From Rhynchopus sp. YZ270_cl-10 (Eukaryota > Euglenozoa > Diplonemea > Diplonemida > Diplonemidae), in the NCBI GenBank assembly GCA_964035575.1, contig OZ037876.1, positions 1,178,001 through 1,242,000 on the forward strand: a stretch of DNA of 64,000 nucleotides, in the 5' to 3' direction. The position numbers were made by a program, and so were the translations under genes. Below, piece by piece: positions 38,439-63,578 of this stretch. The stretch's first letter is position 1, and each line of letters begins with the position of its first letter. The notes beneath the pieces are model-generated. The model searched no databases, was not told the DNA's origin, and was given only the letters and a program-made list of their open reading frames with translations.

Positions 38439-38474
38439 AGGTGACTAAGCACGAGCGGTTTAGGTTCATCTTTT
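38439..38474 (+). repeat. dispersed hairpin-1 element
   Basis: AGGTGACTAAGCACGAGCGG then TTTAGGTTCATCTTTT. CTAAGC pairs with GTTTAG (one G-T pair). Preceded by a TTTTTTTCT pyrimidine tract ending in AG, so the junction reads like a 3' splice site fused to a GTGA donor. Confidence 0.7.
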
Positions 38475-38836
38475 AAACTTTCGTTTTTTTTTTCTCTTCT
38501 CCCCGCCCTCCAGAATTTCCTTTGCGCACGAGAACTACTTCTTTCCCCCCCCCCTTTTTTTTTCTCTCTTTTTTTTGCTTTCGTGAAAAGGAGTGTTTCT
38601 CACTGTGCGCGGTTCAGGAGGGGTCAGTGGTTTACTCACAAAAAAAAAACTATCATAGTGCTTTGAGCTTTTGTTCCCCCCCCCCCCCCTCCCCCCCCTC
38701 TCCATCCCCATTCCCTTTTTCCCCTTCTTCCCACACACCAATCAAAACCCTCGCTCTCCTCTTCCACTTTCCGCTTTCCCTTTTTTTTTACATTACATGT
38801 TCTCGACACACCGAGGTTTTTTTTTTATATTTAATT

Positions 38837-38880
38837 GGTGACTAGGCGCAGTGGTCTGGGATGACCCAATACCGTCTTAT
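38837..38880 (+). repeat. dispersed hairpin-1 element, diverged
   Basis: GGTGACTAGGCGCAGTGGTC then TGGGATGACCC, followed by ACCGTCTTATC. It keeps the GGTGACTA start and a CTTAT tail but the stem is rearranged. Preceded by poly-T. Confidence 0.45.
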
Positions 38881-38998
38881 CATATCAACCTTTTTTTTTT
38901 CTTTTTTTTTTTTCCCCTTTTTTTTTCCCCCCCTTTTTTTTAATGAAACACCACCTTTGTTTCACCAAAATTCAGCGCTAACGTGCCCTTTCAGATGA

Positions 38999-39070
38999 AT
39001 GTGCACGAGAGACATTTAATCCACTACCAAGTTATTTTTAGTGCAATGCCCTCCCCGAGGCTCTTGCACT
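38999..39070 (+). repeat. two-hairpin element (diverged hairpin 1 plus perfect hairpin 2)
   Basis: First part ATGTGCACGAGAGACATTTA resembles the middle of hairpin 1. Second part at 39040-39070 is a near-perfect stem-loop: AGTGCAA pairs with TTGCACT, and inside it GCC pairs with GGC. The second hairpin follows TTATTTTTAG, as in the copies at 49131, 59321 and 63531, and is followed by ATCAGCC (ATCAAC in 49131). Confidence 0.65.
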
Positions 39071-39097
39071 ATCAGCCCCCCTTTTTTTTATCTTATA

Positions 39098-39136
39098 AGG
39101 TGACTAAGCGATGAGAGGCTGAGACATCTTACCCAA
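39098..39136 (+). repeat. dispersed hairpin-1 element
   Basis: AGGTGACTAAGCGATGAGAG then GCTGAGACATCTTACCC. The stem CTAAGC/GCTGAG has one mismatch. Preceded by a T-rich tract ending TTATA. A good acceptor-like sequence (CTGTCTTATAG) follows at 39155-39165. Confidence 0.65.
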
Positions 39137-39736
39137 CTATTTTTTTTCCCCCTCTGTCTTATAGATGTTGTGCAACGATGCGCATATTCTCTGCAAAATT
39201 TTTCTCTGTGTGTTTTTTTTTTTTTTTAAATTTTCTTTGCGCATCTGCATCTGTTCAGTTGCCCGCATTCAGAGAATGTTACATCTCCTATTCACCCCCC
39301 TTTTTACATTTTTAAAGATGCGCCCTTTAGGCCCAAAATTACCTTACGCTGTCTGTAAGATCATTCCTTTGTAAGGGTTTTTTGGAGGTAGTTAAACAGA
39401 GACTTAAGAAGAAGGGTTTTCGTGTTGTGTAGATGTGTGTAATTATGCTAGTAGAGTACAGCAATGTCAATCCCTCTTTTAGGCTTCGTTTTAACAACCT
39501 TTCTTATGAAGGTGTTTTACTGCATATAACCTCGTCGACTTTACGACGTGGCGCTTTTTTTGTATTTTTGTACACAAAAAAATTTTTATGATGGTTTGAT
39601 TGCAACAACATTGTTCTTTTTGTTGCGTGCCTGCATCCTCTGCACGTTGCATCCTCAACTCCATCATTATTTGGCTCTTTGTACTGACTGCTTCAATTGA
39701 AAGTTAACCGACAAAAAAAAAATATTGTAACGTTTT

Positions 39737-39778
39737 GTAGTGGAGTGCATTCCATTGGGTGTCGACACTGCAACCAAA
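39737..39778 (+). repeat. dispersed short repeat, copy 2
   Basis: Diverged relative of 28441-28486, containing the palindrome GTGTCGACAC where the other copy has GTGTCCGCAC. Followed by an AT-rich segment. Confidence 0.5.
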
Positions 39779-40122
39779 ATTAATAATTCTGCTTTTTGGT
39801 TTGGTTTTGTTTTTGTTGGCGACAAACCGGGTCGATACCTTCACACCCACTGCGCATATGCAGGAGCCCCCGTGCCTTAACCTGCAATACAAGCAAATGG
39901 AGTGATAATATCATCCCGAACAACCTTGTGTTTTAAGCTTGCCCACCCAAGAACTCCCTCACACTACTTGTCGGTACTTAACTTCTGATGGTCAAAAAAG
40001 TGCATAACTTTCCTCGGCAATAGCCTAGGGCATTTCTAGAACCTGGACATACGGCACACCAAGCATGGTGCACCCTGAGTAAGAAAAGCACCGGATCAAA
40101 ACAACGTGCCGCCAGGATAGCA

Positions 40123-40159
<37 letters not shown>

Positions 40160-41562
40160 GTATCCATACTTTTGAAATTCATTAGCCTTCGGGCGACTTT
40201 CTGTACAGAACCCATTCTCGGATGGGTGATTGTCGACACTACCAATTAAAAAAAACCTCTTAGCTAGTACGAGCCGGAACAAAGCGGGGCACGTGTTTAT
40301 CTTCTGTCTGCCAAACACAGCCTTCACCCCTGTCGACGGGTTGTTGGTGCTCCCGTTATTCCGTGGCACAGCTAATGTCTTGTTTCTTTCGTATGATCCA
40401 CTTCTTTTTTTTTTTATTCTTTTTATTCTTCTTGCGTTTGCCTACTATCAACTGTCCTTCTTTTTTCCTCCTCTTCATTTTGAGATTTTTTTTTTTTTTA
40501 AAGTGAAAAAGCCAGAGTTATATGTTTGACTCAATGTAAATTTTTTAACAAAACAACACCCAATGTGGTCATCAGACTAATATCCATACCAGGTACAGGA
40601 TTTTGCCCACAATACTTTATCTTTACTGAATTTTTATGCAAAAAAATAGAAAAAATATGGGTGATATATTTTGGTTACGTGTCTGCATTCCTATTGGGGG
40701 CAAATACGAGACCCCCTTAGCTGTCCGCATAAAGGGGATATTCGTTGAACCTCCCTTAGTAAAGATGTACGCACAATGTCAGAATAGATGTCACCCCCTT
40801 TCTTTGTTTGCATTTAGATGTCAGTTCGGATCCCCACAGATGTATAAAAGGAGAAAGCAAAAAAAAAATACGATTTATGTCAAATACACCTTTTAAGTTG
40901 CGATGTAAAGGGAGATAAGAGGGAAAAGTGTTGTAGGGTGTGTGATGTGATACGGTTGGAGTCGAATCCTAGTAGTATTAATGCATTGTTTTCGTCATGA
41001 AACCGGGAAAAAAATAATCAAGACATATAATTCTTGATGTAGACTCCTTTGTACAAAAAAGGTACATTTGTCTTTCTGAAGTTTCTAAGTAGGTCTTTAA
41101 GCACGATTCATATTGCCTTTCTTTTCCCCTCTTTGAAAAAGTGAAATTGTCACCTCAAAAATGACCTTCTATTTGGAAGAGGAAAAAAGAAAAAAAAAAA
41201 ACCTATATTTTTTTTTTTTTGAAGAATTAATCATCTTGTTAACGATGTTGCGTAAGGATCGAACCTCCAACCTCATTACACCCCACACCACTGTTCCCCC
41301 TACACCCCTTTGTAACGAGAAAGAATCCCCCAAGAAAAAAATAATAAAAATTGTGTAGGGTAGGTAAAAAAAAAGAAAAGACAGAATCTTCAGGGTTGAT
41401 GGACCCCCTCTTCCCTGTTCCTGTTTTTTTTCCCCCCTTCCCTTTCCCCTCTTCCCTCTTCCCCCCCCCTCCCCATTTTCTCCTTCCCTATTTCAGTCAA
41501 ATTTCCCTCCCAATCCACGTCACTTTGCTCCCCCCCATCCTCCCTTGTGTTACCCCGTTCGC

Positions 41563-41602
<40 letters not shown>

Positions 41603-42149
41603 GTTGTTGTCTTTCATTTCGCCCAACTTGCAACAAGGTAATGAGTTTACCGCTACAGCGGTAAACAAGTTAGCCAAAAAATGAGGAAAAAAAAAAACAT
41701 CTCCCCCCATCCCTCCCTCCCAAGAAAGAAAACTTACCATCATCCACTCTGTGTTTTTTTATTAGAAGGAAAAAAAAAATATCTTTTTTTTTTTTTACAA
41801 TATCGTTTTACAAAACAAAAGAAAGTTGTCACTGCCATCAATAACAAAAGAGTTAGACTCGTTGGAAAATTGGAGTTCTTTTTTTTTTTTATTTTTTTAT
41901 TTTGCATAATAGGCGGCCACGATACTCGCTCCAAACAATTTATTAATAAAAAGAACAAGAGAAGAAAAAGCGATCTCCACTCAGGGTCGACCCCTCTATT
42001 TTTTCTCTTTTTACTTTATCAACGCCATATATTCTGAAGCAAAAGCCTCCATTTCCAACAAAGAAATAAAATCAAAAAATCAACAAAAAAAAATACACAA
42101 AAATACTGGCAGAAGTTTTAGATCAACCAAAACAGTTTTTTTTTAAAAC

Positions 42150-42303
42150 TCACACTACTTTGTGAGCGAAAAGTGTCACGTCGTTCACTCACCCCCCCCC
42201 CCCAACCGTGCTCCGCAACACCACCCAGGTGGAGATAATGTGGAATTCGTCAATGCATCAAACTACAAGGAGGGGGTGAGGGAACGACAGGTGACACTTT
42301 TTT
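42150..42303. mobile_element. structured MITE-like repeat, copy 1
   Basis: Arms AAGTGTCACGTCGTTCACTC at 42171-42190 and, read in reverse from 42299, AAGTGTCACCTGTCGTTCCC with CTCACCC on both, so about 26-bp imperfect inverted repeats enclose roughly 80 bp. A second small hairpin (CTCACA/TGTGAG) precedes the left arm. A copy with the same layout lies at 62582-62738, including the shared internal CCGTGCTCCGCAACACCACC. No coding capacity. No clear target duplication, so the superfamily is not assigned. Confidence 0.7.
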
Positions 42304-42693
42304 TATAACTATTCCCCAATGTGGCAACACCGGCATGGTGACCTGTATCGGCAAACCGCGTCGTAGAGACGTGAAAAACGGCACCAACTGGGGACGCGGT
42401 CCCCAGGTTTACTCTGGATAGAACAATAAGAGCAGCCACGCTGCCCTCAGCAGCAGCGCTAAAGTGACGAGAGTGAATGCTAAATAACAAACAAAAGAGA
42501 AATCCTCCCTCTTCTCCCCCCTCCCTCATTTTTTTAAAAACTACCTTTTCTTCATCTCCCCACCTCTCACCTCTCACCCCCTCTCCATTCCAGCGACACT
42601 ACACAAAACACCCTTCCCCCCCCTTCCCTCCCTCCCTTCTCTCCCCCTATTTTGCCATAATTTCATTTTGTTAAAAAGGGGGGTTTTTTTTGG
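42304..42693. other. upstream region of the Atg11/FIP200-like gene
   Basis: About 390 bases: first a mixed-composition part, then a strongly C/T-rich stretch from 42500 to 42690 that is the likely core promoter and 5' UTR of the next gene. No ORF supported. Confidence 0.4.
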
Positions 42694-45714: not shown

Positions 45715-46630
45715 ACACTGCGGGAGAGGGGGGATGAATGAAGAGCACTTTGCCGCTCTCTAGCCTTCTTCCGAAAGTAGTTGACACCCTATTGCAAACT
45801 GACGGAAGGGAAAAGAAATCATTTTGTTGATTCGGCGATTTTTTTCTCTCTTGTGGTATCGTTATTGTTCGTGTACGTTATGTTCTCAGATGGGATAGCA
45901 GGTAAGGGGGGTAGGGGGGGAGGGAAATGGAGTTACTGTGTAACAATGTGCGAAGAAAAATAAACAAAAATAAAGCAGAATATCGTACAAAAAGTGGCTA
46001 TTACAACTATTTCAACGAATTTAGCAAAAAAAAAATATTCCTGGCTTTCTTTGTGCATGGTGTGTTCTCAAACACGCTTTAGATACAACAAAAAAGAGTG
46101 TCGTTTTTATGAAGTGACTATAGTAGTTTTTATGTCTTATGTGTCGAATTTTTTCCTTTTTTTCCCCCCTCCAATAGGAAATACACCCTGCGCTTGACTC
46201 TAGCTGCGGCGACTTTGTGTAAAAAAAGTGGAGATGTGCACCATGTGGCAACACAAAAGATTACACTACTCCAACAAATTTTTATTTTTTTTTCAAAAAA
46301 AATAGTAAAATAATGCTGTGACGCAACTGCCGATACGCTACAGGCAGTACAGCGGCACACCTACATCGTAGGTAACAGTGGAAAGGGTAGTGTGCATCTT
46401 TTTTTTTCAAATCCAGACTAACAGCTTCGGTACTGGGGGTTCTCTGTGGTATACGTTATTGGGAGAGGGGGGAGGGGATGTGAGTCGATGCGTCTCGCGT
46501 GTGTGTGAAAGCAGTTGTGGGTTGTTCATGAGGAGTGGGACATTGCTCAATTCTCGCATGTGTGTGAGAGAGTTTTGAAATGACAACAAAACAACATAAA
46601 ATTCTAAGAAAACAAGCTATTTTTGGCTTA

Positions 46631-46729
46631 CCGTATTCGTACAAATTATCGACCGTAAATATGTTCGACCTTTTCAGGATTTTTCTGGAAGTTCGACATT
46701 TTTGGTCGATAATTTTTGTACGAATGCGG
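46631..46729. mobile_element. 99-bp foldback MITE with TA target duplication
   Basis: Left arm CCGTATTCGTACAAATTATC then GACC; right arm read in reverse CCGCATTCGTACAAAAATTA then TCGACC. Arms are about 45 bp with a few mismatches, so the element folds into one hairpin. TA dinucleotides flank it on both sides (46629-46630 and 46730-46731), as for Tc1/mariner-type elements. No coding capacity. Confidence 0.8.
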
Positions 46730-46769
46730 TATATATTTTGCCCCCCTCTCCACCTTTATCCTTTTTGAA

Positions 46770-46806
46770 AGGTGACTAGCACGTGAGGCTTCGGTCATAT
46801 TACCCC
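46770..46806 (+). repeat. dispersed hairpin-1 element
   Basis: AGGTGACTAGCACGTGAGGC then TTCGGTCATATTACC. Lies 39 bases after the foldback element. Preceded by a C/T-rich tract and followed by C- and T-runs. Confidence 0.6.
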
Positions 46807-47051
46807 CTTTTTTTGTTTTGTTTCCCCTTCTTTGTGCCATGATTTTTTTTTTTCAAAAAAACAATTTAAAATAAACCGAACACCACACATCGCTTCCCTG
46901 CTCGGCACATCTTTTTGAGACTTTGTGTAGTTTTTTTCTCTTCTTTTATTGCACGCCATTCTGTTCCGTTATTTTAGGGTCCATTCTCTGTTCTCTGCCT
47001 TCTGCTTTCTCTCCCCCCTCTCCCCATGCATATTTACAAGTAACCTTTGCA

Positions 47052-47073
47052 GCCTGGTTGTCACCAACCAGGC
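47052..47073. other. short perfect hairpin
   Basis: GCCTGGTTG, loop TCAC, CAACCAGGC: nine perfect base pairs. It is not followed by a U-run. Function unknown; it is not near an ORF I support. Confidence 0.7.
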
Positions 47074-48688: not shown

Positions 48689-48696
48689 TGTGTAGT

Positions 48697-49346
48697 CACC
48701 TCGCTTTTTTTTTTTATTTCGTGTGTTCTCCACGCTTTTTTTTTTTTTTTGGTTTGAGTCGACCATCACCCTTTTTTTTTTTTTTTGCTTGAGTGCACCC
48801 TATTATACCTTCTATTCAGTAGAATAGTTAGTATATGAAACAATTTTGTTTGAGTCAACATGCTTCATATGTTATCTGCTCACATACTCTTTCTTCTGCA
48901 ATAACCTTTTTCTAAATCCATACCCCCTTCCCGTCTTTCTTCCTTTATGATGTACACGAGAGGTGGCACTCATCCTTCAAGTATTCCTTGTACTTCGGTA
49001 TCTCTTTATCCGTTGTACAGTTTTTAAAACACCAAAACCCCCCTTTTTTCTGTACGAAGAATGTGCAAAGAGAGAGCAGGGGAGGGGCGGGACTCCCTAC
49101 ATCGTTTTCATGGGGGATTTTTTTTTTTGTCAGTGCCTGCGTCCCAGAGGCGTTTGCACTATCAACTTCACTTTTTTTTTTATGACTGTATCGAAAGGCA
49201 AAGTCTATCTAAAACGATCACCACCCATCATCACCTTTCTTCCCTCCCTCCCTCTCCTTCTCTCCCTCTCCCCATCACGCTTTTCACCACATTATCCATC
49301 ACCACTCAGAAAAGGGATAAATGCTTAGATAAAATCACCCAAATTG
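48697..49346. other. upstream region of the Pro/Gly-rich coiled-coil gene
   Basis: About 650 bases with T-runs, a diverged hairpin-1-like string at 48950-48980 (TGTACACGAGAGGTGGCACT) and a hairpin-2 copy at 49131. The last 150 bases are C/T-rich and likely hold the 5' UTR; an in-frame TAG at 49326 closes the reading frame upstream of the ATG. Confidence 0.5.
49131..49166 (+). repeat. dispersed hairpin-2 element
   Basis: CAGTGCCTGCGTCCCAGAGG then CGTTTGCACTATCAAC. AGTGC pairs with GCACT. Preceded by GGGATTTTTTTTTTTGTCAG, again resembling a 3' splice site. Shares GCGTCC and GTTTGCACT with the copies at 59321 and 63531. Confidence 0.65.
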
Positions 49347-51679
49347 ATGCCATCTTCGGCATCCCACCAGGGTCATAGTCACATGCATCTCCAGCATGAG
49401 CAACCCCATTTGTACCCACAGCAGGTTGATACAAACTGGGTGCGCCACAACGTTGCTGCCGTGAAGGCGGAACTGCAGCATGGGAGCATCTCCGACCAGG
49501 CGCGCCTCAGCGCTTTGCAGGCCTTCCTCACGGTGCCACCACCGAAGGAGTTCGCTCCACAGGCAGACCCGCAGATGCATCCACACCTCCCTGATATCCC
49601 CCTTCAACCTGAGCACCCTCCACACCCTACCCCCCCTGTTGCACCTCTTTGGAAAGAGCTGGCAGCTTTGGAACGACCGCAGATGTCACGTGTCTCTAGA
49701 ACTCCTCGTAGTGTGGGTGGTGGGGGTGTAGGTGGAGGTGGGGTGGGGCATAACGGTCCGTCCACTCATACTGTAGTGTCACCGCAGATAACGTTTATAG
49801 AAGGCGCACGGCAGGAAGGGCTGCAAGGGAGGGTTGCGGAGTTGGAGAGCATGGTGTCGGTGTTGTCTGAGAAGGTGGCGAAGGAGGTGGCACCGCCCCC
49901 ACAGCCAACACCTCCACCTCCACCTCCTCCCCCAACGGACCCTGCCCAAATGGATGCTACGATTTCTCTGTTAGAAACACAGCTTCGGACTGCAGGTCGT
50001 TCTGGCAATGCGCGCGCAGTAACGGTATTAGAAGGATGCATCCGAGCTCTCAGTGACGTCTCCAATGCGGTTCACGAAGCACCCCCTCCTGAGGCTCAAA
50101 TGGAAAGAAGGCTGTCTCCACAGAGGACGAGAATGGCACCTCCTCCGCCTCCTCCTTCTCTCCCGCCTGTTGTGTTCCCAACGGAGCCTGAGGTGTTTGT
50201 ACCGAGGGATGTGTATTTGGGGGCACCGGTGGAGAGGGAGGTGAGGCCGTTGCCGATGATGGGGTCAGGAGGAGGAGGGGGCGGGGGGTTGACAACAGAC
50301 GCAGCAGCAGTGTTGTTGGAGTCGATTGAGAGGTTGGCAAAGGGGAATCAGACCTCAGAGGCGGCTAGGGTGGCGTATCAGATGAGGCATGCTCAGATCC
50401 CAGAGGGGTCGTCTGTCACGACCGGGCCTATGTCGGATGTGCCGTCGGGTGTGGGGTCTGTACCATCAGGGCTGTCAACGCCAGTGAAAAGGCCCAGCAG
50501 GCCTACCTCATCCTGGGCAGCGCCACGCAAGCAGCGTACCCAAGAAGAAGAGGCCAAGCTGCAGGCGCTTCAAAGAAAGCTGTCGGACCTCGAGAAGGGG
50601 GCGGAGGCGACGGGGTATGATAGTACCTTTGCTGCGGTGCAGAAGCAGCTGCATGCGGCGGGGGGGTCGAAGAAGTCGACATCGCAGTGGTCTCGTGGCA
50701 AGGTATGTAGCATGGGGGTGCTAAAGAGAGAGAATTTCAATTTGTGGGCAGATTTGGGGGTAAGTGAGTGGTTTGTAGCGATTGCTTGAATAGCTTTGAG
50801 TGGGGGGGTCAATTCTGGTCTTTGTACAGTCACAGCAAACATCGGTAAAAAATGCCCTCCGTTTTGAAATCTCAAAATCCACCTTAGTTTGTACCCCACC
50901 CGGTGTTTGTTGTGTGCGTCAGTGACTGTATTTTTTGTTTTGGCTGGGGGGAGGCTTTGCACTGAAGGTCGGCGACTGTTAAGGTGGTTTTGGAGCCTGC
51001 GGTTGATATGGTCACAAATTTCCACCCCGGGTAAACTGATTTGATGACCCGGCTTCGCTGCAGGAGTTGCACGTCCACATGTTGTCCTCGGAGAGGAATT
51101 CGCTCCGGATCCGCTGATTATTTGCGTCCTTCTCTGCCTTCTCGTTCTGCTTCTGAACACTCATCACGTTTGCGCTTGGTGGCCTGTTTCATGCCCGCAA
51201 ATTCAAAGGCTTCCTAGATTGTACGATCGGGACAGCTTGAGCAGGAGAAGCTCCCCTCACTGTGGACTTGTCTCAAGGCACGTCCAGTGGTCTTGGCAGC
51301 AAGAGAGCTCAAGCTTTGGTTAGGTGACTCTTTATTTTACACTCAAAGTAGTGAAACTGCCCAGTACGCACTCCAGTTCAGATCCAAATTTTATAAAATC
51401 TTAGTTTTTTTTAGTTTTTACTCAACACTACGGAAGTATTGGGTGTACTTTTGGTGGCGTTGCTCATGACATTGTTGCGTCTTTTTTTAAAGGTGACTAA
51501 GGGAGAGGTTCGTACTATCTTCTTATTCTTTACAGGACACCCGCGGTGGTGAGAGCGAGCGAAGGATGTCGAAACACTCGACTGTCGCCAGCCACTCTGA
51601 GGCTGGTACAGAAGACCCAATGTTCGCAGCAGTGCAGCGCCAGCTTGCAGCACAAAGGCGACGTTCTTCCAAACGTTAA
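49347..51679 (+). CDS. Pro/Gly-rich coiled-coil protein, 2 exons, 499 aa
   Basis: Exons 49347-50702 and 51536-51679 in phase 0 (donor AAG|GTATGT, acceptor TTTACAG). I do not recognise the family. N-terminal 120 residues are His/Pro/Gln-rich; then a Gly/Val stretch, a short coiled coil (about 155-180), poly-Pro runs (about 193-201 and 266-273), a helical pair, a Gly run near 313 and a basic coiled segment near 395-415. The C-terminus repeats a short motif, FAAVQKQLHA before the intron and FAAVQRQLAA after it, each followed by a basic Ser/Lys/Arg tail, which supports the proposed splice. The mixed composition suggests a cytoskeletal or scaffold protein, but that is a guess. The 833-nt intron contains a hairpin-1 copy just upstream of the acceptor. 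Confidence 0.85.
51490..51522 (+). repeat. dispersed hairpin-1 element in an intron
   Basis: AAGGTGACTAAGGGAGAGGT then TCGTACTATCTTC, ending 13 nt before the acceptor at 51535. Preceded by CGTCTTTTTTTAA. The stem is truncated compared with the intergenic copies, but the AGGTGACTAAG start is intact. Confidence 0.6.
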
Positions 51680-52098: not shown

Positions 52099-54545
52099 AT
52101 GAATCCAATCGAATTAGAGCCTGAAGACCGTCTGCCTGAGTCGCAGGCGAAGGCGGACACATGGGGTGAGGCACCTCAGGTGCTGTGCTGCATGTGTGGT
52201 AAGGGCATTGAGGCGAACCCTTCGAACATGTGTCTCGAGTGCCTGCGTGGTACCGTCGACATCACCGAGGGTGTTCCCCGTGAAGTGACCGTCACGTGGT
52301 GCAAGATCTGCGAGCGCTACCTGCAGCCCCCGAAGTACTGGACAAAGTGCGACCTCGAGTCGAAGGAGCTCCTCACCCTCTGCCTCAAGCGTATCAAAGG
52401 TCTCAACAAACTCCATATCGTGGACGCCTCGTGGATCTGGACAGAACCTCACAGCAGAAGACTGAAGATCAAGCTGACCATGCAGAAGGAGGTCTTCACG
52501 GGCACCGTCATCCAGCAGAGTGCGGTGATTGAGTTTATTGTGCATGCGATTCAGTGCGAGGGGTGCGCGAAGATTGCGACGGGGCAGGAGCAGTGGGGAT
52601 GTGTGGTGCAGCTGCGTCAGCGGGTGGACCATAAGAGGATGATGTTGTATTTGGAGCAGCTGGTGTTGAAGCATTCGATGCATTTGGACTGTTTGAAGGT
52701 GCAGAGTGAGCCGGATGGTATTGACTTCTTTTTTGAGGGAAGGTCGCCGGCATTGAAGCTTGTTCAGTTCTTTGGAGCACTTGCCCCCACACGTCGTGTC
52801 GATGCCGAACAACTGATCTCCTCCGACCTGAAGAACAACACCGCTAACTTCCACTACTCCTACCGTCTTGACGTGGCTCGCCTCTGCCGTGAAGACATCA
52901 TCTGCCTGACGCGCCCCTTCTACAAGCAGCTCGGAGGCATCGGGCCCGTGTGCATTGTCGCAAAGATCTTCAGCAATATCGTCATCATCGACCCCCGCAC
53001 ACTCGCAGCAAAAGAAATATCCGCACAGTCTTACTGGAAAGCGCCCTTCACGGTATGAAAAAAGAGGGGGAAAAAGCAAAGAGATGTTTATTGGGAAAGG
53101 TTTGGGGAAAATGTAATGTAGAGAAAAAGGGTTAGTTTGGTTCTTGATGTTACCATCCCATGTTATTACGTATTGGTGTGAAATGAATGGACCCTTTTCG
53201 TGTAGATTGCAAACAGTTTTTGTTCTTAATTTGTGGGGCAAAAAATATCAGACTGGGTCTTTTTTAAAAAATCCGAATTCTTCCTCCAGCTCTGGTAGTT
53301 AAATATTTACGGGTATAAAAGGGTAGAGGTATAGGGTATAAAAAATACACATCACAACCACACAGTCGCTCGCGTCCGCTCGTGTTTTGAAGCAGTTTTA
53401 CATCCTCGACGTGGAGAGAATCCCTGGACAGGTCAACGGAAAGTATGCAACCACCCACTGCACACATCCATTCCCCCATTTTTTTTGAACCCCATTTTTA
53501 GATTCCTGCTCATACTTCACCGTATGGCCAACTTAAGAAAACACTGTTTTGCCTTGAAAGTACCATTATCTCTATGAAGAATTGTGCGTCAGGCAGGCAG
53601 AGCCAGAATCTTTCTGACGCAGGTACACTGTCACGAGAGGGCTTTGTATTTCAACCCTGCTTTTCGTAAGGTGACTAAGCACGTCAGGGTAATTTTATAA
53701 ATCTTTTCTTTTTCAAGAATTTATCTTCATCACATTTCCCCATTTCACCAACACCCCACAGGTACCAATTGGCAGACATCACCTGCTGCCGTGAGGACGA
53801 GATTGGCACCGGAAAGGAATGGATCGTGAGAAGCCATCTCGGAAACGCGGTATGTCCGAAAAAGGTTAACACAAAAAATGATCTTCAACACACTATGGGC
53901 ACATTCGCCTTTCAAGCTGACATCCTTTTTTTGAACCTAACACGGTGGAGTCCGCTCAAAATGGGTGGACCCTTTTGGGCTGACTCTTTAGGCAGCCCTC
54001 TCAAAGAGTCCGCCCAAAAGGGTCCACCCATTTTGAGTGGACTCCACTGTGAACTAAACACGAAACTTATTAACCCATTCAAAATCTCCATCCCACACCC
54101 CCTCCCTCCACAGCTCCGTGAAGGCGACACCGCCCTTGGATACGACTTCGAGACTCTCAACTTCAACAGCGACGACATCGACAAATACCCTGAGGAGAAC
54201 CTCCCCTCTGTTGTGCTCATTAGAAGGTTCTACCCGAACCAGACTGCGCGCAGAAGGAAGAGAAAGTGGGAGCTTAAGCATCTGCCCAAGGCTGCCGGTG
54301 CCGAGAAGACGAAGGCACAGGAGGCCAAGGATGAGGAGGAAATGAACGAGTTCCTCGACGAGCTTGAGCGTGACGAAGAGTACCGTAAGAACGTTGGGCT
54401 CTACAAGAAGGCGGACCTCGATGCCATGTCTGTTACCACCATTGGAGGCGACGAGCCGCGTGTGCGCAGAGACGAGCTGTTGGAGGATATCGACCTCACA
54501 GAGGAAGAAGTCAAAGAACTCAAGGGTGACGAAGAAGAGGACTGA
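52099..54545 (+). CDS. NMD3: 60S ribosomal export protein NMD3, 4 exons, 516 aa
   Basis: Exons 52099-53052, 53366-53442, 53762-53849 and 54114-54545. The second junction splits a Lys codon (AA|G); the others are phase 0. NMD3 binds pre-60S subunits in the nucleus and recruits CRM1/exportin for export. The N-terminal zinc-binding CxxC pairs are visible (CCMCGKG, CLEC, CKIC, then CEGC), followed by conserved WTEPHSRRLKIKLTMQKEV, YLEQLVLK, an IDPRTL stretch and WKAPFTSL. The second half has TGKEWIVRSHLGN, GYDFETLNFN, VVLIRRFY and an acidic C-terminus with the export-signal-like LTEEEVKEL. Length matches yeast (518) and human (503). Intron 2 carries a hairpin-1 copy. Intron 3 (264 nt) is a multiple of three, has no in-frame stop and contains a foldback element, so retention would insert 88 residues. 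Confidence 0.97.
53621..53705 (+). repeat. hairpin-1-like pair in NMD3 intron 2
   Basis: First GGTACACTGTCACGAGAGGG then CTTTGTATTTCAAC, matching 55441-55480 almost exactly. Then at 53669 AGGTGACTAAGCACGTCAGG with a TTATAAATC tail, a typical hairpin-1 start without a preserved stem. The acceptor is at 53761. Confidence 0.6.
53941..54051. mobile_element. 111-bp foldback MITE inside NMD3 intron 3
   Basis: Left arm CACGGTGGAGTCCGCTCAAA then ATGGGTGGACCC; right arm read in reverse CACAGTGGAGTCCACTCAAA then ATGGGTGGACCC. Arms are about 49 bp with three or four differences and a spacer of about 11 bp, so the intron RNA would fold into one long hairpin. The target duplication is uncertain (TA bases lie 1-4 nt outside each end). 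High arm identity suggests a recent insertion. Confidence 0.85.
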
Positions 54546-55625
54546 TAAAAAATACCCCCCTTTTTTTATTTTTTGAAATATTTTGGAAAGCTTAGTATGA
54601 AAAGAAAAAGGGATTGTCGATACAAAAAAAAAAAAATGTGCTTTTTTTTTTAGATGGCGTGCCTCAGTCCTCAAGGTGTCAGCGCGTTATCATCATTTTT
54701 TTTTGTGTGAAGTTTTTTTTATGTTTTTTTTATGGGGAATGGAGACAACTTCAATCGTAGCATATTTTTTTCTTCTTTTCTAAATGTGTCATGGCTTTCT
54801 GGTGACACTTGATTGTCAAATACAAAAGAAGAAAAAAACATCCCGGGTCTAGCCATATCAATGAAGTGTTCTCTATTTGCTGTTGTGTGAACAAAGCAGC
54901 CAAAAACGATAGAAGCAATTTTTTTTTGTCTCCTGTTCTCTTTTTGCCTCTCCCACACACCATCGCCTACCCCCCTGCCCCCCACACACACCCCTTGCCT
55001 GTCTCCCTTGGGGAGAGTGAGTTTCTTGTGGAGATGCCACAAAGACATTACGGTCAGCAACGATCACTTCACTTTTTTCCTCCCAAAAAAAAAAAAAAAA
55101 AAAAACACAATCAAGTTTATAAACAAATCATGGAAGGAAGAAAAGTCAAAAAGAAGAAAAAGACAAAAAAAAAAAAAAAACTGTTCTCCCCCATTTTGAA
55201 CAGATTAGCTTTACGTTCTTTTTCTCTCATCCACTTTGCATGCAATCACGAAATGTATGTAATATTGCATGGTTGGGTGTCCATTCCCCCCGGTACACCA
55301 ATTATACCAAGGTACATGGTGTGGCCGACGACCCCCAAAATAGCAGAAAGTAGCACAAAATAGCGCCTTCCTTCAGCCGCACCAAAAGAATCCAGATGCC
55401 CAGAATAGCACAAAAATAGCATCTTCTTTCAGCCACACCAGTACACTGTTCACGAGAGGGCTTTGTATTTCAAGTCAACCTTTTTTTCCTTTTGGTGCGA
55501 TCTTTCGATTGAAAATTATATCTTAATCTTTTGGTGCGTTTTGGCGCAAACAGACGAAACGAAGTCGCACATTCTTCTCTTCTCTGTAGATCTTTACTGA
55601 GAAGAGAAGAAGAAAATAGACAGAC
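54546..55625. other. intergenic region downstream of NMD3
   Basis: About 1.1 kb with T- and A-runs and no supported gene. It holds a GATTGTCGATAC motif (54611-54622), a duplicated 34-bp block (55351-55384 and 55406-55440) and a hairpin-1-like string at 55441-55480. An 184-codon ORF here passes through poly-A tracts coding for Lys runs and is not credible. Confidence 0.5.
55351..55480 (+). repeat. short direct repeat plus hairpin-1-like string
   Basis: TAGCACAAAATAGCGCCTTC and CTTCAGCCGCACCA at 55351-55384 recur at 55406-55440 with four or five changes. Immediately after, 55441-55480 reads GTACACTGTTCACGAGAGGG then CTTTGTATTTCAAGTC, the same string as in NMD3 intron 2 (53621). Confidence 0.6.
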
Positions 55626-57531
55626 TCATGTGGTCAGTGATATACCGCTGTTTAGCAGACTGGCAGAATCGTGTTGAAGGGAGCTTGGGGATGCTATGCA
55701 GGAATGTGCAGACTGTTTCCAGCTGGAGGGATGAAGCGGGTAGGGCAGGGGGGGATTGGAATGATGGTTTTGAAATATTGATATATGAGTTATCCCTGAG
55801 GGTGGATGGGAGAGGCGTGAGTGAAGTTGCAGTGTTCGAGCAGATTGCAACTACTGACTTGGGGGGTTTTTTTTTGGATGACTTTTCTTGTGGCTGCTTA
55901 GATCAATTCTGCTGCTCTTCCCTTGTGGGAAATCATGGTTTCGGGTCCACCCAAAGTTTTGGTCACTTTGGGACTTCTGGGACCATGCAGTCATCTGGCA
56001 CACCTTTTGTTCCTATACCTGTGCTATCAATTTATTGATTGCATATGTTGAAAGGCTTCTTTCAACTCTGGGACAAAATGCAGCATGCGTGGAGGATTGT
56101 GGACACACCTTTGATGGGGAATGGGGTGGGTTGTGCGGACACAGAGAGGCAGGTGGAAGGGGTACCTAAAGCTACGAACAGTCTTCTTGCCAGGGGATTT
56201 GCAGTGGGTTTGTGGGGGTTAGGGTTTCGAGGGAGTTTTGATGGATGGGGTGCCTTCTTTTTGGTCATCATTGACGTATTGCGTATGATGAATTCAAAGC
56301 GGGTTGCAAGGTTTGGTGACTCTGGACTATTCAATGGGGAACATTGAATGGCCGAAGTGGAGAAGGTTTCCGCGTCAACAGCATTTGGACGTGGGTCGTT
56401 TTCAAAGCAAGAGAATGCCTGTGCTGTCTTGGGGTAGGGGCGCGGGGGTAGCATTTCATGGGGAATGCCTGCGAGGAAGAGTAGTGTTGCTCTTTGTTGG
56501 TGTGTGGGGGGTTTTGTCCTGTATGGGTGCACAGCCGATATGGAAGCAGGCTGTGAAGCAGGCAGTCCTGAGATGTGATGCATCAGAAATGGAAGGGGTG
56601 TGTGTGTGTGTGTTTGATACGGATTATCCCTTCAGGGCTGTCTTCAGTTTTCCAGGGTACCTTGGTATTGAGGGTTTTATTTGCCGGACAGCATGGGGTG
56701 AGGAGAGTGAATAATTATTTATCAAGAGTTGGGGTGAAGCGAGCGGGGGGGTAAGATCTCTCTTTTTTTTTTTGCAGCGGAAGGTGAGGGCCGTAAACGT
56801 TGGCACCAAAGCCATTACGTTGTGTTTTGCAGTTCTGTTTGTTGGCCTCAGGGTACTTTGTGCTTTCATCCGGGGCTGGCATCGTGGGTCAGTCGGAGGT
56901 GCCTGCATCAATAGCTTCATTATTTTTTCTCTCTGGCTGAGCACTAACTATTCTCTTTCTGTGTACCCAGACAAAGTCATCTTATGCGTAGAGGGGCTGC
57001 AGGGAAGACGCAGAAGTGGGGTGGGTGTGAGGTTGGTTTGTGTGGTCTCTTGGGGGCATGCACTGCACCTTTCAAACGGAGGATGAGGCTGCACTGAGTG
57101 TTCCGCCCTCCTCTCACAGTTTGGATTTCACCTTTACACCGCAAAAAGCTGCACAAGGTGGCAGTGGATGTGTCAGAGGCACGGTTCCGTGCACGGAGTG
57201 GGTACATCGTTCAGGGTTCCAAAAAAAAAGGCTTCGTACCAGACCACGGTGGTTGACCGTCATCCGATTATCAAACAAAAAGTGCACAGTGTTTATGGAT
57301 GGTAATCGCTCCTCGAATCCCAGATTTCGGGAGGCAACCTTTTCTCCCCACTTCGGGCTGTGGGTATTTATCAAGGATGGGGTAGCACAGCCACCTTCTG
57401 GAGAGCGTACTGTCCTTTTGATGGCTGACGGCCCTGGTAGTAGAGCCGCAACGCTCTCGAGGTGTCCCCCTCTTCAAGAACGACTCTTTAGGCACTGTGA
57501 GACTTAGAAGTTATCCTTTTTTTTTTTTCAG
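55626..57531 (+). other. G/T-rich block with unresolved ORFs
   Basis: About 1.9 kb unusually rich in G and T on the + strand, with several ORFs of 90-155 codons in all three forward frames (for example 55628-56038, 56039-56347, 56304-56714 and 57040-57507). Two acceptor-like sites stand out: CTCTTTTTTTTTTTGCAG at 56760-56777 and CTTTTTTTTTTTTCAG at 57517-57532. I could not connect the pieces with GTATG donors into one frame and recognise no domain. It may be an intron-rich gene, a decayed gene, or non-coding DNA with strand-skewed composition. Confidence 0.4.
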
Positions 57532-58611: not shown

Positions 58612-59047
58612 AAAAAAAAAAGTTTTTTTTTATTTAGATTCCTGCATTTGGAATGCGGGAAAGTGGAGTTACTATTCCATCAAGAAAAAAAAAACGAAAA
58701 AAGAGTCAATTTCGATTCCATAAAATCAAAAAAGGTGGTTATTTTTAGTAGTTAGATGGAAAATGAGGGGGGTGGGGTGGGGTGGGGGTGGGGAGGGAGG
58801 GGAGGGGGTTAAATCTGGTTTCTATTTGTTACTCCTTGGTGTTTGTCAACCGCTCCCCCTTTTTTTTTTCTATTTCCATTCCCCCTAAGTGTGTTGTGTA
58901 TGTTTTGAGTTTTTTCTCTTTTTTCATGTGTACGCAGCGTATCCTTAAAAAAATAAACCATGTGCAGTAATAGGGAGATTGTTCGCAGTTTCTCTGCCGT
59001 GGTTACGTATTCCGTACAAAAAAAAAAGGCCGTTTTTTTTTTTTAAA

Positions 59048-59149
59048 AGGGTAACTAAGTACAACTAGACTTAGTTTAATCTGATATGCTTTTATTTTTG
59101 ATTTTGTTTTTTGTTTTGTTTAGTGCCCCCAAGTGGTGTCTGCACATAA
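59048..59149 (+). repeat. two-hairpin element with a compensatory stem change
   Basis: Hairpin 1 reads GGGTAACTAAGTACAACTAG then ACTTAGTTTAATC. The stem is CTAAGT/ACTTAG, a full C-G to T-A swap relative to CTAAGC/GCTTAG in other copies. Hairpin 2 begins at 59122 after TTTTGTTTAG: AGTGCCCCCAAGTGGTGTCT then GCAC. Confidence 0.7.
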
Positions 59150-59279
59150 ACAAAACAAAAATTGGCCGTTCGAATCGTTTTTCAAACAAAAAGAAAAAAA
59201 AACCCATTTCCTTCTCCCCTATTCGTTTTTACCCTTAGTTGTGTCAGTGTTATGTGCCTTTTTTATTAAAAGGTATTAG

Positions 59280-59362
59280 AGGTGACCAAGCCCAAGAGGC
59301 TTAGATTCATCTTATGATTTAGTGCCCTGCGTCCGCCGGTGTACGGCGAGGTGTTTGCGCTT
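59280..59362 (+). repeat. two-hairpin element
   Basis: Hairpin 1 AGGTGACCAAGCCCAAGAGG then CTTAGATTCATCTTATG. Hairpin 2 at 59321 follows ATGATTTAG: AGTGCCCTGCGTCCGCCGGT then GTACGGCGAGGTGTTTGCGC. Outer stem AGTGC/GCGCT (one G-T), inner stem CGCCG/CGGCG with a 5-nt loop. The spacing between the hairpins is only about 5 nt here. Confidence 0.75.
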
Positions 59363-59793
59363 TTCCACTTTCCCCACCCCCTTTTTTTTTGTTATTATTT
59401 TCCCTCTCGTTAGATCGCTCCCCTCCTCCCTTTACTCCCAAAAAAGGGGGGGGGGGTAATTTAAACAACAGACTTTTCCCCCAGATTTTTTTTTCTCTTA
59501 TTTTTTGTCTATCTTGAGGGGTGTTTTATTAAAGGGGCCATTTTTTGGGTAAGTGGAGTGCTTCACACTTTGCCTAATTGCGCAAACAATCCTTTTTTTT
59601 TCTGACTGATATAAAAAAAGGAGTGCGTTGTAGGCATTTTTTTCTTTGGTTTAAAGAGTAGGGGAATATTGTTTTCTTTGTTTTTTGTTTAAGATGTCTT
59701 TGTACCCAGGGTGCGTTTCATCATTGCAAAAAGGAAAAAAAAAAAATTTCTTTTCTTTGTTTTGTGTCCCATTCTTCTCTTCCCCTTTCCCCT

Positions 59794-60243
59794 AAGCAAA
59801 AAGAACATGAAATTCCTGCTGCTGTTTTTTCGTCATTGTAACCAATAAAATTGCTTTCACATAAAAAGCTTTTTATTGTATCCTACCTTTTCCCCCTCCT
59901 TTTTATTTTTTAGCCCTTGCTCCTTCTGATGAGCGCGGTCGAAGGGCTTTTTCCTGGTCAGGGAGCAGACCGCTGAAACCAGAATTTTTTATTTTGACAT
60001 TTATTTTGAAAAACAAGGTTATTTTGACTTTTTCTCCCCCCTTTTTTTTTCCTTTTTTCTTTTTTTCCTTTTTTTTTTTTGAAAAAGCACTGAAAGTTCC
60101 CGTACAACCACTGCGACAGAGTAAGCCGGAAACTACATTAAAGTTCGCACATCGCTTTGGTTAAGGATCTAAAAAAGCTAAACAAACACAAACACAAAAT
60201 AGCAAAAACAAAGAGTACAAACATAACAACAAACATTTTCAAA
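59794..60243. repeat. 450-bp direct repeat, left copy
   Basis: Nearly identical to 61563-62013 (one extra T in a T-run plus edge differences). It starts AAGCAAAAAGAACATGAAAT and ends at AACAACAAACATTTTCAAA. It contains an AGCCCTT/AAGGGCT hairpin near 59932-59963. No TG...CA ends and no ORF, so I do not call it an LTR. Confidence 0.9.
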
Positions 60244-60460
60244 CTCCCCTATCACTATGTCACCGCGTTGCCTACGGTATACGGCCTGCTGGACTAGAGA
60301 GGCGCCGGGCGCTATAGGTTATTGAGCTACACAAAAGTGTATGTACATAGCCAGAAACAAAAACAAACAGTACTCCTTTATATTTAAAACCTTGAACGAC
60401 CCCTTGAGAAGCAGGGTCTTTTTCAATTTATTTTAAGTTTCCTCCCCCTGAACAAGAAGG
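60244..60460. other. unique spacer between duplications
   Basis: About 217 bases unique to this side. The first 100 bases include a GC-rich piece (GCGCCGGGCGCTATAGG near 60302) that read in reverse slightly resembles the 5' half of a tRNA, but no anticodon or T arm can be formed. Confidence 0.5.
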
Positions 60461-60950
60461 AACGCAAGACTTGCAATACCTACGTACTTCATGAAGTCCA
60501 TCTATAGATACCACACTTCACGATAGAAGGCATTTTTCCACAAGCCCCCAAAAGGTTTTGTTTTGAATAAATTAGCCTGAGGTAGGTCAACGAGCCTCGA
60601 TGAACCGTGTTGCAGGGTGGCTTATCGTTAGCTTTACGCGCGATTGCAACATGCATTTTCTTGTCTGATCCTTTGATTTTTTCCCCCATTTTCTTTTACG
60701 TCGCAGATAAAGTAAGAAGATACTGCAACAATAACTATTTGTATATTCTTGTGTCCTCCAATATATTTCCATTTGAACAGCACAAACATGCGGCCCAAAA
60801 CCTAATATCATGCTTGTCTCGAACCTGGTTAGTTCGACAAAGGAACCTGGTAAATTCCTTCTCTGATTCAAGGACCCTTTATTGGAATCACTGAAACACA
60901 AATAACGGTTGTTGTCATGCTTTAAGGTTTGTGTGCCTCGTTAATTTTTA
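60461..60950. repeat. 490-bp tandem duplication, copy 1
   Basis: Matches 60957-61446 at about 98% by eye, directly adjacent in the same orientation (offset 496). A minus-strand ORF spans much of each copy: 104 codons here, 136 in copy 2, the difference caused by small changes near 60677. The protein is unrecognised. Confidence 0.92.
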
Positions 60951-60956
60951 AATAGA

Positions 60957-61446
60957 AACGCAAGACTTGCAATACCTACGTACTTCATGAAGTCCATCTA
61001 TAGATACCACACTTCACGATAGAAGGCATTTTTCCACAAGCCCCCAAAAGGTTTTGTTTTGAATAAATTAGCCTGAGGTAGGTCAACGAGCCTCGATGAA
61101 CCGTGTTGCAGGGTGGCTTATCGTTAGCTTTACGCGCGATTGCAACATGCATTTTCTTGTCTGATCCTATGTTTCCCCCCCATTTTCTTTTACGTCGCAA
61201 ATAAAGTAAGAAGATACTGCAACAATAACTATTTGTATATTCCTGTGTCCTCCAATATATTTCCATTTGAACAGCACAAACATGCGGCCCAAAACCTAAT
61301 ATCATGCTTGTCTCGAACCTGGCTAGTTCGACAAAGGAACCTGGTAAATTCCTTCTCTGATTCAAGGACCCTTTATTGGAATCACTGAAACACAAATAAC
61401 GGTTGTTGTCATGCTTTAAGGTTTGTGCGCCTCGTTACTTTTTAGT
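60957..61446. repeat. 490-bp tandem duplication, copy 2
   Basis: Second copy of 60461-60950. It contains the longer minus-strand ORF (60985-61395). The high identity points to a recent event, or to collapsed or expanded assembly at a repeat. Confidence 0.92.
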
Positions 61447-61562
61447 AGGAGCACCATAAACATAACGAATTGTGTGAAGAACACCTCATCATACGACACG
61501 TTTCCCATATATTGTGAAAACTGTCTGCCCACAGGTTGGCGTGCTACGATACCTGTACACAA

Positions 61563-62013
61563 AAGCAAAAAGAACATGAAATTCCTGCTGCTGTTTTTTC
61601 GTCATTGTAACCAATAAAATTGCTTTCACATAAAAAGCTTTTTATTGTATCCTACCTTTTCCCCCTCCTTTTTATTTTTTAGCCCTTGCTCCTTCTGATG
61701 AGCGCGGTCGAAGGGCTTTTTCCTGGTCAGGGAGCAGACCGCTGAAACCAGAATTTTTTATTTTGACATTTATTTTGAAAAACAAGGTTATTTTGACTTT
61801 TTCTCCCCCCTTTTTTTTTTCCTTTTTTCTTTTTTTCCTTTTTTTTTTTTGAAAAAGCACTGAAAGTTCCCGTACAACCACTGCGACAGAGTAAGCCGGA
61901 AACTACATTAAAGTTCGCACATCGCTTTGGTTAAGGATCTAAAAAAGCTAAACAAACACAAACACAAAATAGCAAAAACAAAGAGTACAAACATAACAAC
62001 AAACATTTTCAAA
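61563..62013. repeat. 450-bp direct repeat, right copy
   Basis: Second copy of 59794-60243, offset about 1769-1770. The two copies bracket the tandem 490-bp repeats, so the order is A, spacer, B, B, spacer, A. Confidence 0.9.
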
Positions 62014-62581
62014 TTCCCCTTTCCCCTCCCAAAAAGTCACATAAAAAAAAAAAAATACATTCAACTTTTTCTTCACTGTGTTCGTTTTCTTTTATTTTAT
62101 CTCGTACATGCAACCCTTCACGCAAGGATTGCACAGAATGCACCAAAGTACATTGTTTGGAGACTACTGTTGGGATTCTACCCCAATTGTTTGTCATTAA
62201 CGACCTTTGTACGTACACGGTGTACTGCGCTTAAATTGCAGCAAAAATCGCTCTCTAACCTATTGCTACTTCGTTTCCCCCCCCCATCACATTTCCCCTC
62301 ACCTCACAACGAAATGCAAACTGCTTTGCCCTGTGTTTTTCCTATCCAAACTTTTTTTTTTTTCATTTTTTTCCCCCCCCATTTTTTTCATCTGTCTCCG
62401 TTAAAAACAGGGTTCACCATTGAACTGACTATGTGCATACTACTATCGTAAGTTTTTTAGTTTCATTTATTTTTCAAAAAAAATTTTTCTTCAAAAAAGA
62501 CAGGAAACGTTTCAGAAACACTTTTATAACTTTCCTCATTGACACGGAAGACACATACATGTTGTCAATTATTTTTTTTAC

Positions 62582-62738
62582 GCACACTACTTTGTGAGCG
62601 GAAAGTGTTACGTCGTTCACTCACCCAACCGTGCTCCGCAACACCACCACCCAACAGGTGATTTTTAGTGTGTGTGGAAGCGTCAACGCATCAAACAACT
62701 ACAAGAAGGGGGGTGAGGGAACGACAAGTGACACTTTT
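62582..62738. mobile_element. structured MITE-like repeat, copy 2
   Basis: Same design as 42150-42303: a small CACACTACTTTGTG hairpin, then AAAGTGTTACGTCGTTCACT at 62602, the shared internal CCGTGCTCCGCAACACCACC, and the closing arm GGGTGAGGGAACGACAAGTG then ACACTTT. Right next to it (62744) starts a hairpin-1 element. Confidence 0.7.
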
Positions 62739-62743
62739 CTATT

Positions 62744-62780
62744 AGGTGACTAAGCATGAGAGGCTTAGGTTCATCGTACA
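62744..62780 (+). repeat. dispersed hairpin-1 element, reference-quality copy
   Basis: AGGTGACTAAGCATGAGAGG then CTTAGGTTCATCGTAC. CTAAGC pairs perfectly with GCTTAG around a 7-nt loop. Preceded by ACTTTTCTATT, so the junction reads TTAG|GTGACT. Confidence 0.8.
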
Positions 62781-63428
62781 TAAACGGGGGTTTTTTTCTC
62801 TCTTCTTTGTGCCTTTTTATTTCATTCTTTGTAACAAATGACAGGTAGTTGCAAATGCGCTACAGAATTAAAAAAAACCACCCTTTATACGCGAACAGCG
62901 TGGGAGAAGGGTGGTTGTTGAAAGGTCAAATGCATAAGGCAGGGTTAGCCTTCAAGTATCAAAAGGAAAAAGAAAAAAAAAAAACTACAACATTTGTGTA
63001 GGAATCAAGGAGAGTATCCTTGGGGTATCTACATCAAAATTAAGTTTTTCAAAAAATAAATGAGGGGAGTTTGTTTGGTGCAGTTTGACAACTGTATTAT
63101 TCCAACTATTTATCAAAGCAAAAAAAAAGCAAAAAAAATAATAAACAAAATATCCTAGGGACGAAACTTCCCTGATGATTTTGTCCTCTCTCTCTCTCTT
63201 TTTCTATATTTTACCTTTTTTTTTTTAGGTTCACCTGAACACCGCAAGGCTAGGGTATCCAAAAGGGGGGGAAAAATTGTTCTGATCAGGGGAAAAAGAA
63301 AAGAAATGGAGGATTTCCTCTGCTGACCACAGCTCTCATCTTTCACATGCTCTTTCAAATGATGTCTGTGCCGCAACTGTAGGTACATTTATCCCCTCTT
63401 TCTTTCGCTTATTCTTTCTTTTTTATCA

Positions 63429-63578
63429 GATTGACTAAAGCACGGTGGGCTTGGGGCATTAGTACCAACCTTTCGTTTTTTTCTCTCTTTTTAAAAGGTT
63501 ATTATTAGTTTTGTTTCTTCGCTTTTATTTCAGTGTCTTGCGTCCGCCGATGAACGGTGAGGTGTTTGCACTTTCAAC
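63429..63578 (+). repeat. two-hairpin element
   Basis: Hairpin 1 GATTGACTAAAGCACGGTGG then GCTTGGGGCATTAGTACC, preceded by CTTTTTTATCA. Hairpin 2 at 63531 follows CGCTTTTATTT: CAGTGTCTTGCGTCCGCCGA then TGAACGGTGAGGTGTTTGCA, CTTTCAAC. Outer stem AGTGT/GCACT and inner stem CGCCG/CGGTG are kept with G-T pairs. It has the same length as the copy at 59321. Confidence 0.75.

Follow-up and report, generated by a model that had tools for sequence, protein, structure and literature searches.

What is a small hairpin repeat, carried in many copies and nearly always pointing the same way as the genes around it, doing in the genome of a diplonemid? The question is raised by positions 1,178,001 to 1,242,000 of contig OZ037876.1 of Rhynchopus sp. 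YZ270_cl-10 (64 kb, hereafter the window), in which a preliminary description reported two hairpins, H1 and H2, joined in one dispersed element and apparently conserved as structured RNA. Having searched the whole 152.4-Mb, 126-contig assembly, we conclude that each hairpin is very probably the 3′ end of a non-long-terminal-repeat (non-LTR) retrotransposon transcript, H1 that of a long interspersed nuclear element (LINE) family, here called G, and H2 that of a LINE-like family, O, and that the scattered hairpins are cut-down copies of these ends.

H1 reads AAGGTGACTAAGCACGAGAGGCTTAGGWTCATCTTATAAACTTTTC, then T, and its consensus is AAG-GTGACTAAGC-ACGAGAG-GCTTAG-GW-TCATCTT-ATAAACTTTTC, again followed by T; base pairing between AAGGTGA on the 5′ side and TCATCTT on the 3′ side makes the stem longer than previously described. 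That the copies exceed chance is borne out at every level. Run over a sample made up of the window and 28 loci, an nhmmer profile built from 52 seeds, 6 of them derived from the window, gave 86 matches at our threshold of E<=0.01; with these sequences reversed it gave 0. The whole assembly contains the palindrome CTAAGC-N7-GCTTAG 3067 times (1 in the reversed control), the exact 23-mer GTGACTAAGCACGAGAGGCTTAG 1428 times (726 + 702; control, 0) and a 29-mer spanning the longer form 297 times at <=2 mismatches (control, 0). Loci L001 to L017 were picked for holding H1, and L018 to L028 were placed independently of matches; the 15 matches in these 11 independent loci (110 kb) extrapolate, very roughly, to 20,000 per genome.

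The connection to LINEs comes from fixed distances. With 150 of 739 reverse transcriptase (RT) candidates scored and 100 of the 297 long-form H1 places (the 29-mer) listed, a listed long form lies 1696 or 1663 bp downstream, on the same strand, of 17 of the 27 family-G RT matches; none of the 123 other scored RT matches has one within 6 kb. (Minus-strand offsets of 1724 and 1691 are the same distances measured to the far end of the 29-mer; 9 of the 100 listed places coincide with listed 23-mer copies.) Family G has matches to the PF03372 endonuclease and the PF00078 RT in frames of up to 1462 aa, the endonuclease lying 5′ of the RT by 1147 bp in 16 of 18 pairs and by 1126 and 1141 bp in the remaining two; PF14529, present in LINE families A to F, was not reported for it. 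In one copy of G (L069, 941 nt), the open frame ends ...NDIIPDNKLVEASAAEAVR*, and 13 nt later the GTGAC of the hairpin begins, so that H1 constitutes nearly the whole 3′ untranslated region (UTR) of the family. The peptide end ...EASAAEAVR* is also found in L003, L049, and L054 (small upstream differences). A Pfam search with the 282-aa C-terminal piece returned no family; it contains a Cys/His stretch resembling the zinc fingers of LINEs. A LINE encoded just upstream in L003 was considered and rejected, the similarity there being mainly to a repetitive gene-like stretch, and BLAST among the loci shows such stretches, with many tandem 75-nt repeats, in both L003 and L028.

The same relation holds between H2 and family O. 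On the contigs covered by listed H2 places (C1 to C16), the exact H2 word lies 3520 bp (four cases) or 3511 bp (two cases) downstream, on the same strand, of all six family-O endonuclease matches. We call this family LINE-like because it carries the PF03372 endonuclease in a frame reaching 1476/1480 aa and is laid out like G. The 3′-terminal stem-loop was read directly in the G copy at L069 and, for O, located through H2 at its fixed offset.

The shapes of the copies point the same way. Alignments of H1 share a common 3′ end and have nested 5′ ends, many of them at AAG-GTGAC and a few extending 25 to about 200 nt. In the exact-core set, whose 5′ arms are intact, 33 of 38 copies end 0 to 4 nt upstream of GTGAC, with two at 7 and 9 nt and three at 25 to 200; in a second intact-arm set, 43 of 49 stop at 0 to 4 nt and two at 5. 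A start after model position 4, whether by truncation or by divergence, is seen in 23 of the 86 profile matches. The scattered tail inserts are about 45 to 60 bases in size, and T makes up 57% of the 12 nt preceding AAG, compared with 31051 of 96984 bases in the noncoding DNA of the sample. Clear target-site duplications (TSDs) flank the copies at L029 (57 identical nt), L051 (about 40 nt) and L066 (about 31 nt). In the 5′-end and TSD comparisons, L030 and L063 were left out as duplicates of L029 and L062.

Within the window, five of the eight H1 places first listed (38439, 39098, 46770, 59280 and 62744) are profile matches, but the other three (38837, 59048 and 63429) have none even at E<=1 and were called from the letters; the profile adds copies at 27208, 51490 and 53668. 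The H1 set is as follows.

27208 to 27256, plus strand: H1 copy, newly found (nhmmer E 4.8e-06)
38439 to 38488, plus strand: H1, the probable cut-down 3′ end of LINE family G (nhmmer E 4.2e-14)
38837 to 38870, plus strand: weak H1-like sequence (no profile match at E<=1)
39097 to 39147, plus strand: H1 copy (nhmmer E 3.9e-09)
46769 to 46817, plus strand: diverged H1 copy (nhmmer E 0.0024)
51490 to 51527, plus strand: H1 copy, newly found (nhmmer E 0.0056)
53668 to 53709, plus strand: H1 copy in NMD3 intron 2, sense (nhmmer E 0.0022; flanking exons by tblastn with diplonemid-type NMD3)
59048 to 59092, plus strand: diverged H1-like hairpin, CTAAGT/ACTTAG (fold z -2.01; no profile match at E<=1)
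59280 to 59320, plus strand: H1 copy (nhmmer E 2.1e-10)
62744 to 62785, plus strand: H1 copy with intact stem (nhmmer E 1e-11; fold z -2.13)
63429 to 63460, plus strand: weak H1-like sequence (no profile match at E<=1)

The NMD3 gene has exons at approximately 52099 to 53052, 53366 to 53446, 53760 to 53849 and 54114 to 54545, and, of the matches that carry a species name, the best is NMD3 of Diplonema papillatum, at 77% identity (next named, <=56%). Its intron 2 has GT..AG ends and carries the H1 copy in the middle, distant from both splice sites, and a role as a splice-site element was rejected on that ground. The copy at 51490 is followed by a pyrimidine-rich stretch, a CAG and an in-frame stretch, and is therefore probably intronic as well, with the exon boundary presumed from these signals. 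A known noncoding RNA was likewise rejected: Rfam gave 0 matches at gathering score in the window, and the 5 weak ones miss these copies.

H2 is one of four tail families found in sense orientation only, the others being H1, M2 and H3. In the same sample, the profiles of H2, M2 and H3 gave 27, 24 and 15 matches, respectively (one H3 match, at window 49145, is the H2 copy at 49124 picked up through a shared tail), and exact test words gave 713, 548 and 1028 matches genome-wide; all reversed controls gave 0. Three of the five H2 places first listed, 49131, 59321 and 63531, are profile matches, whereas 39040 and 59122, recognized by eye in the sequence, have none at E<=0.01.

39040 to 39071, plus strand: weak H2-like sequence
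49124 to 49176, plus strand: H2, the probable cut-down 3′ end of LINE-like family O (nhmmer E 7e-17; fold z -2.77)
53625 to 53667, plus strand: M2, third tail family, directly 5′ of the H1 copy in the NMD3 intron (nhmmer E 3.6e-13)
55443 to 55486, plus strand: M2 copy (nhmmer E 2.3e-13)
56858 to 56933, plus strand: H3, fourth tail family (nhmmer E 3.6e-18)
59122 to 59147, plus strand: weak H2-like sequence
59314 to 59361, plus strand: H2 copy, into which the end of the H1 copy at 59280 extends (nhmmer E 0.0038)
63528 to 63588, plus strand: H2 copy (nhmmer E 7.1e-11)

In L044, L053, L007 and L017, the H2 copies reach farther upstream, through a second stretch resembling a hairpin (ACACTCC...GGAGTGTC or close to it), and the 3′ end of family O may accordingly be structured over a greater length. 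H3 words recur every 4870 bp on contig C7 (135527 to 159877) and about every 4959 bp on C8 (1369372 to 1394167), with at least 6 copies in each stretch; from this regular spacing, H3 lies there within tandem arrays of units of about 4.9 kb.

The spacing of H1 and H2 shows no association between them: H1 stands within 250 nt upstream of 2 of the 27 H2 matches, compared with 12.3% of random noncoding points. Thus the two-hairpin unit of the preliminary description dissolves, its unfamiliar layout arising because separate insertions lie near one another. Its companion claim, that the stems survive sequence change, fares no better. For this analysis, 75 of the 86 H1 matches passed a span filter, 13 of these were omitted as diverged or oddly long, and window copy 59044 to 59092 was added, giving an alignment of 63; loci L029 to L068 are exact 23-mer copies and hence uninformative on stem variation. 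Across 62 distinct copies there is no covariation (score, 0.081 versus 0.085 in shuffled alignments, with 382 of 500 shuffles reaching the observed value). The named stem is paired in 80.6% of cells versus 80.7% in shuffles, and pairs changed on both sides number five versus 4.1. Sliding the 3′ partners lowers pairing to 28.1 to 52.6%, as is to be expected when the founder itself folds into a good hairpin. RNAalifold predicted no pairs on the MAFFT alignment of H1 copies, and in the genome-wide count of hairpins with a 7-nt loop, the loop-closing pair is found 26 times as uncompensated C.A and 2 times as compensated T-A. The CTAAGT/ACTTAG change at 59048, cited earlier as a compensated stem, is real and has one further instance among the 62 (in L005); both loops are of 8 nt, so neither is counted in the 7-nt genome-wide pattern. 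Fold z scores, taken on slices of unequal length, are -5.25 for L003 and -4.72 for the LINE copy L069 (H1), -2.13 and -2.01 for two window H1 hairpins, and -2.77 and -1.42 for two window H2 hairpins. Hence the structured-RNA reading keeps its half on origin, H1 and H2 being 3′-terminal hairpins of LINE and LINE-like families, and loses the half on pairing conserved copy by copy: the copies show no sign of such selection.

The orientation of the copies, by contrast with their pairing, holds up nearly without exception, and far beyond the window. In the window, all matches at E<=0.01 and all codon-supported gene segments are on the plus strand. In sampled loci with codon evidence of their own, by which gene strand was judged, 122 of 124 matches are sense; counting L014, L016 and L027, which have no codon support of their own, by the block in which they lie, the figure is 150 of 152. 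The two exceptions are a partial match at L002 4306 (E 0.0022), in a locus with codon signal on both strands, and an M2 match at L021 5189 (E 4.7e-12). Judged against flanking markers of other families, and using the first 100 places listed in each family list, four-family places agree in 272 of 273 determinable cases (227 indeterminate); the sole disagreement, C1:1281700, is about 64 kb beyond L008, whose genes and H1 copies are plus. A longer H3 word agrees with its flanking markers in 34 of 34 cases (60 indeterminate). The listed places form megabase single-strand blocks, with neighbours within 150 kb agreeing in 314 of 320 pairs. Among contigs C1 to C19, 13 of the 18 with more than 6 markers read minus and then plus, which looks like transcription running outward from an internal switch point. 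As for the transposons themselves, families G and O are sense in 10 places and antisense in 0 (40 indeterminate), whereas LINE families A to F are sense in 4 and antisense in 9 of 13 determinable places (53 indeterminate; Fisher p=0.0016). An asymmetry of T tracts was rejected as the sole cause of orientation, the effect being too small (240 sense-strand runs of T8+ versus 127 of A8+).

How could such inserts arise? LINEs prime on nicked target DNA, in the process known as target-primed reverse transcription. In families G and O, the LINE protein would recognize the hairpin of its own tail and nick a T-rich site, and the A-rich strand would then prime against the U-rich tail for reverse transcription. 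Many templates would end at the hairpin base, perhaps where 5′-to-3′ RNA decay is halted by the protein-bound hairpin; the position of the 5′ ends suggests that trimming back to the bound hairpin often produces the template. The result would be hairpin-sized inserts that decay neutrally afterwards. The sense-only orientation would be set at insertion, coupled to the direction of transcription or replication, and we consider an origin at insertion more likely than one by selection because families A to F occur in both orientations in the same blocks. Only tentatively, and as somewhat less than probable, do we propose the full picture: that one group of diplonemid LINEs inserts strand-locked, almost always sense on the megabase scale, often from a template comprising just the protein-protected 3′ hairpin, and has left sense-oriented hairpins by the tens of thousands in introns and in the intergenic parts of pre-mRNA, with nicking or priming tied to transcription or to a co-directional replication fork.

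The strongest competitor concerns orientation alone and is compatible with LINE origin: purifying selection may have removed antisense inserts. We regard this as distinctly less than probable, yet a serious contender. Antisense tails could bring harmful processing signals, Leishmania SIDERs (short interspersed degenerate retroposons) are sense-biased (PMC2689281), and in the LINE families H to N and P to S, too, sense copies prevail (18 versus 4). On the other hand, it would have to produce a bias near 100% in four tail families while leaving antisense copies of A to F within the same blocks. With respect to the inserts themselves, an independent, ultra-short short interspersed element (SINE), with a transcript of its own and the tail of LINE G, would account for so many 5′ ends at a single point, the hairpin base, unlike the broad range of LINE truncation. 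But intermediate lengths (7 to 200 nt beyond the core) exist and match the LINE, and the window has no tRNA gene and no Rfam match at gathering score (RNA polymerase III boxes A and B were not scanned for); a SINE seems to us unlikely.

Still less credible is a population of cis-acting RNA elements that selection maintains in introns and UTRs for processing or stability, and that are confined to the sense strand because they act in the transcript. The near-absolute orientation is what such elements should show, as is the rarity of tail matches in codon-supported coding segments (1 of 152, where these segments make up 27.8% of the sample); however, the pairing gives no sign of compensation, the linkage to LINE ends is fixed, and the NMD3 copy sits mid-intron, far from the splice sites. 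Finally, the H1 core is an inverted repeat, as in miniature inverted-repeat transposable elements (MITEs) or other DNA transposons with terminal inverted repeats, but the conserved 11-nt tail lies outside that repeat, 5′ ends are nested while 3′ ends are shared, the clear TSDs are of unequal length (about 31 to 57 nt), and the copies are linked to LINEs; this origin strikes us as barely tenable.

Several observations weigh against the LINE-tail interpretation or narrow its base. Family O had no RT among the 150 of 739 candidates scored. M2 and H3 show no recurrent linkage to scored RT or endonuclease matches; stray offsets are an M2 place lying 4037 bp beyond an RT that belongs to a different family, and a place each of H3 and H2 following a single RT. 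The LINE sequence actually read comprises 941 nt of one G copy and none of family O, the linkage being a matter of coordinates, and the family names A to S are groupings made here by score and frame length. Because families H to N and P to S lean to sense as well, the orientation contrast depends on A to F. Both samples of 5′ ends require an intact 5′ arm, so cuts inside the hairpin go uncounted. Clear TSDs are few, and the statistics on flanks are modest: an anchored test over the 86 copies gave a mean of 7.27 versus 6.02 in mismatched controls (p=0.002), and at a threshold of 12 it singled out 11 of 86 copies versus 4.1% of controls, under length limits that exclude the long L029 repeat, while an unanchored comparison separates weakly (18.2 versus 16.5). 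Tail recognition and template protection are, moreover, inferred steps of the mechanism.

The window has other repeats, apart from the tail families. Positions 1 to 18416 are a satellite array with periods of 76 and 114, multiples of a 38-bp unit (94% matches) that contains the palindrome AAAAGCGTCGCTTTT. A long inverted repeat of MITE-like look occupies 53948 to 54044 in NMD3 intron 3 and has a weak, sub-threshold mir-290 match on both strands; another MITE-like inverted repeat, ACCGTATTCGTACAAATTATCGACC ... GGTCGATAATTTTTGTACGAATGCGGT, lies at 46630 to 46730, just 5′ of the H1 copy at 46769. The repeat CGCCGCAGGCGCACGGTAC, at 25243 and 48436 and in several loci, differs from the tail families in that a single locus can carry it on both strands. 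A frame of 2770 aa runs without interruption from 29862 to 38174 and has a PAN domain near its end.

If orientation is fixed at insertion, these copies are a natural record of target-primed reverse transcription relative to the direction of transcription or replication, and the inserts mark the direction of transcription along the chromosomes. They also carry a warning, that hairpin repeats in such genomes are not necessarily functional RNAs.

Comparison with known systems begins with the stringent-type LINEs ZfL2-1 and ZfL2-2 of zebrafish and UnaL2 of eel, in which the protein binds the stem-loop of its own tail and this stem-loop has been shown to be necessary for retrotransposition (PMC4176376). 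Families G and O resemble them in having a family-specific 3′ stem-loop, a different one in each of the two; unlike in the fish elements, the requirement for it in the diplonemid families is presumed from the analysis. Two features found here, the clustering of 5′ ends where the hairpin begins and the sense-only orientation, are not mentioned for ZfL2 or UnaL2 in the consulted text of PMC4176376. The SIDERs of Leishmania are about 4-fold sense-biased overall; in 3′ UTRs their bias is much stronger, and exclusive according to the abstract, although the table includes antisense copies (398 and 816 sense, 54 and 64 antisense in its first two columns) (PMC2689281). They and the diplonemid tails are both short, truncated, sense-enriched retroposons of euglenozoans with long gene clusters (PMC2689281, PMC11520807), but the diplonemid tails are about 99% sense among determinable places; they have a tail hairpin, of which the SIDER text at hand makes no mention, and at least one copy lies within a cis-intron.

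Among diplonemids, Diplonema papillatum shares LINE-type genes (LINE-, SLACS-, R2- and jockey-like), the clustering of genes on one strand and an abundance of dispersed repeats that lack an explanation (PMC10161547); the word "hairpin" is absent from the main text of that article. The noncanonical base-paired introns of hemistasiid diplonemids, for which a MITE-like transposon origin has been suggested (PMC12621601), are likewise paired elements in diplonemid genes, but H1 lies inside a GT..AG intron and does not form its ends. The open-licence PMC titles and abstracts covered contain no description, for diplonemids, of a hairpin-base cut-off or of an orientation as strict as this. Hairpins at LINE tails are already known, as are truncated LINE copies; what stands out in Rhynchopus is that many 5′ ends coincide with the hairpin base, and that about 99% of determinable places, in several tail families, follow the orientation of their block while LINE families A to F do not.

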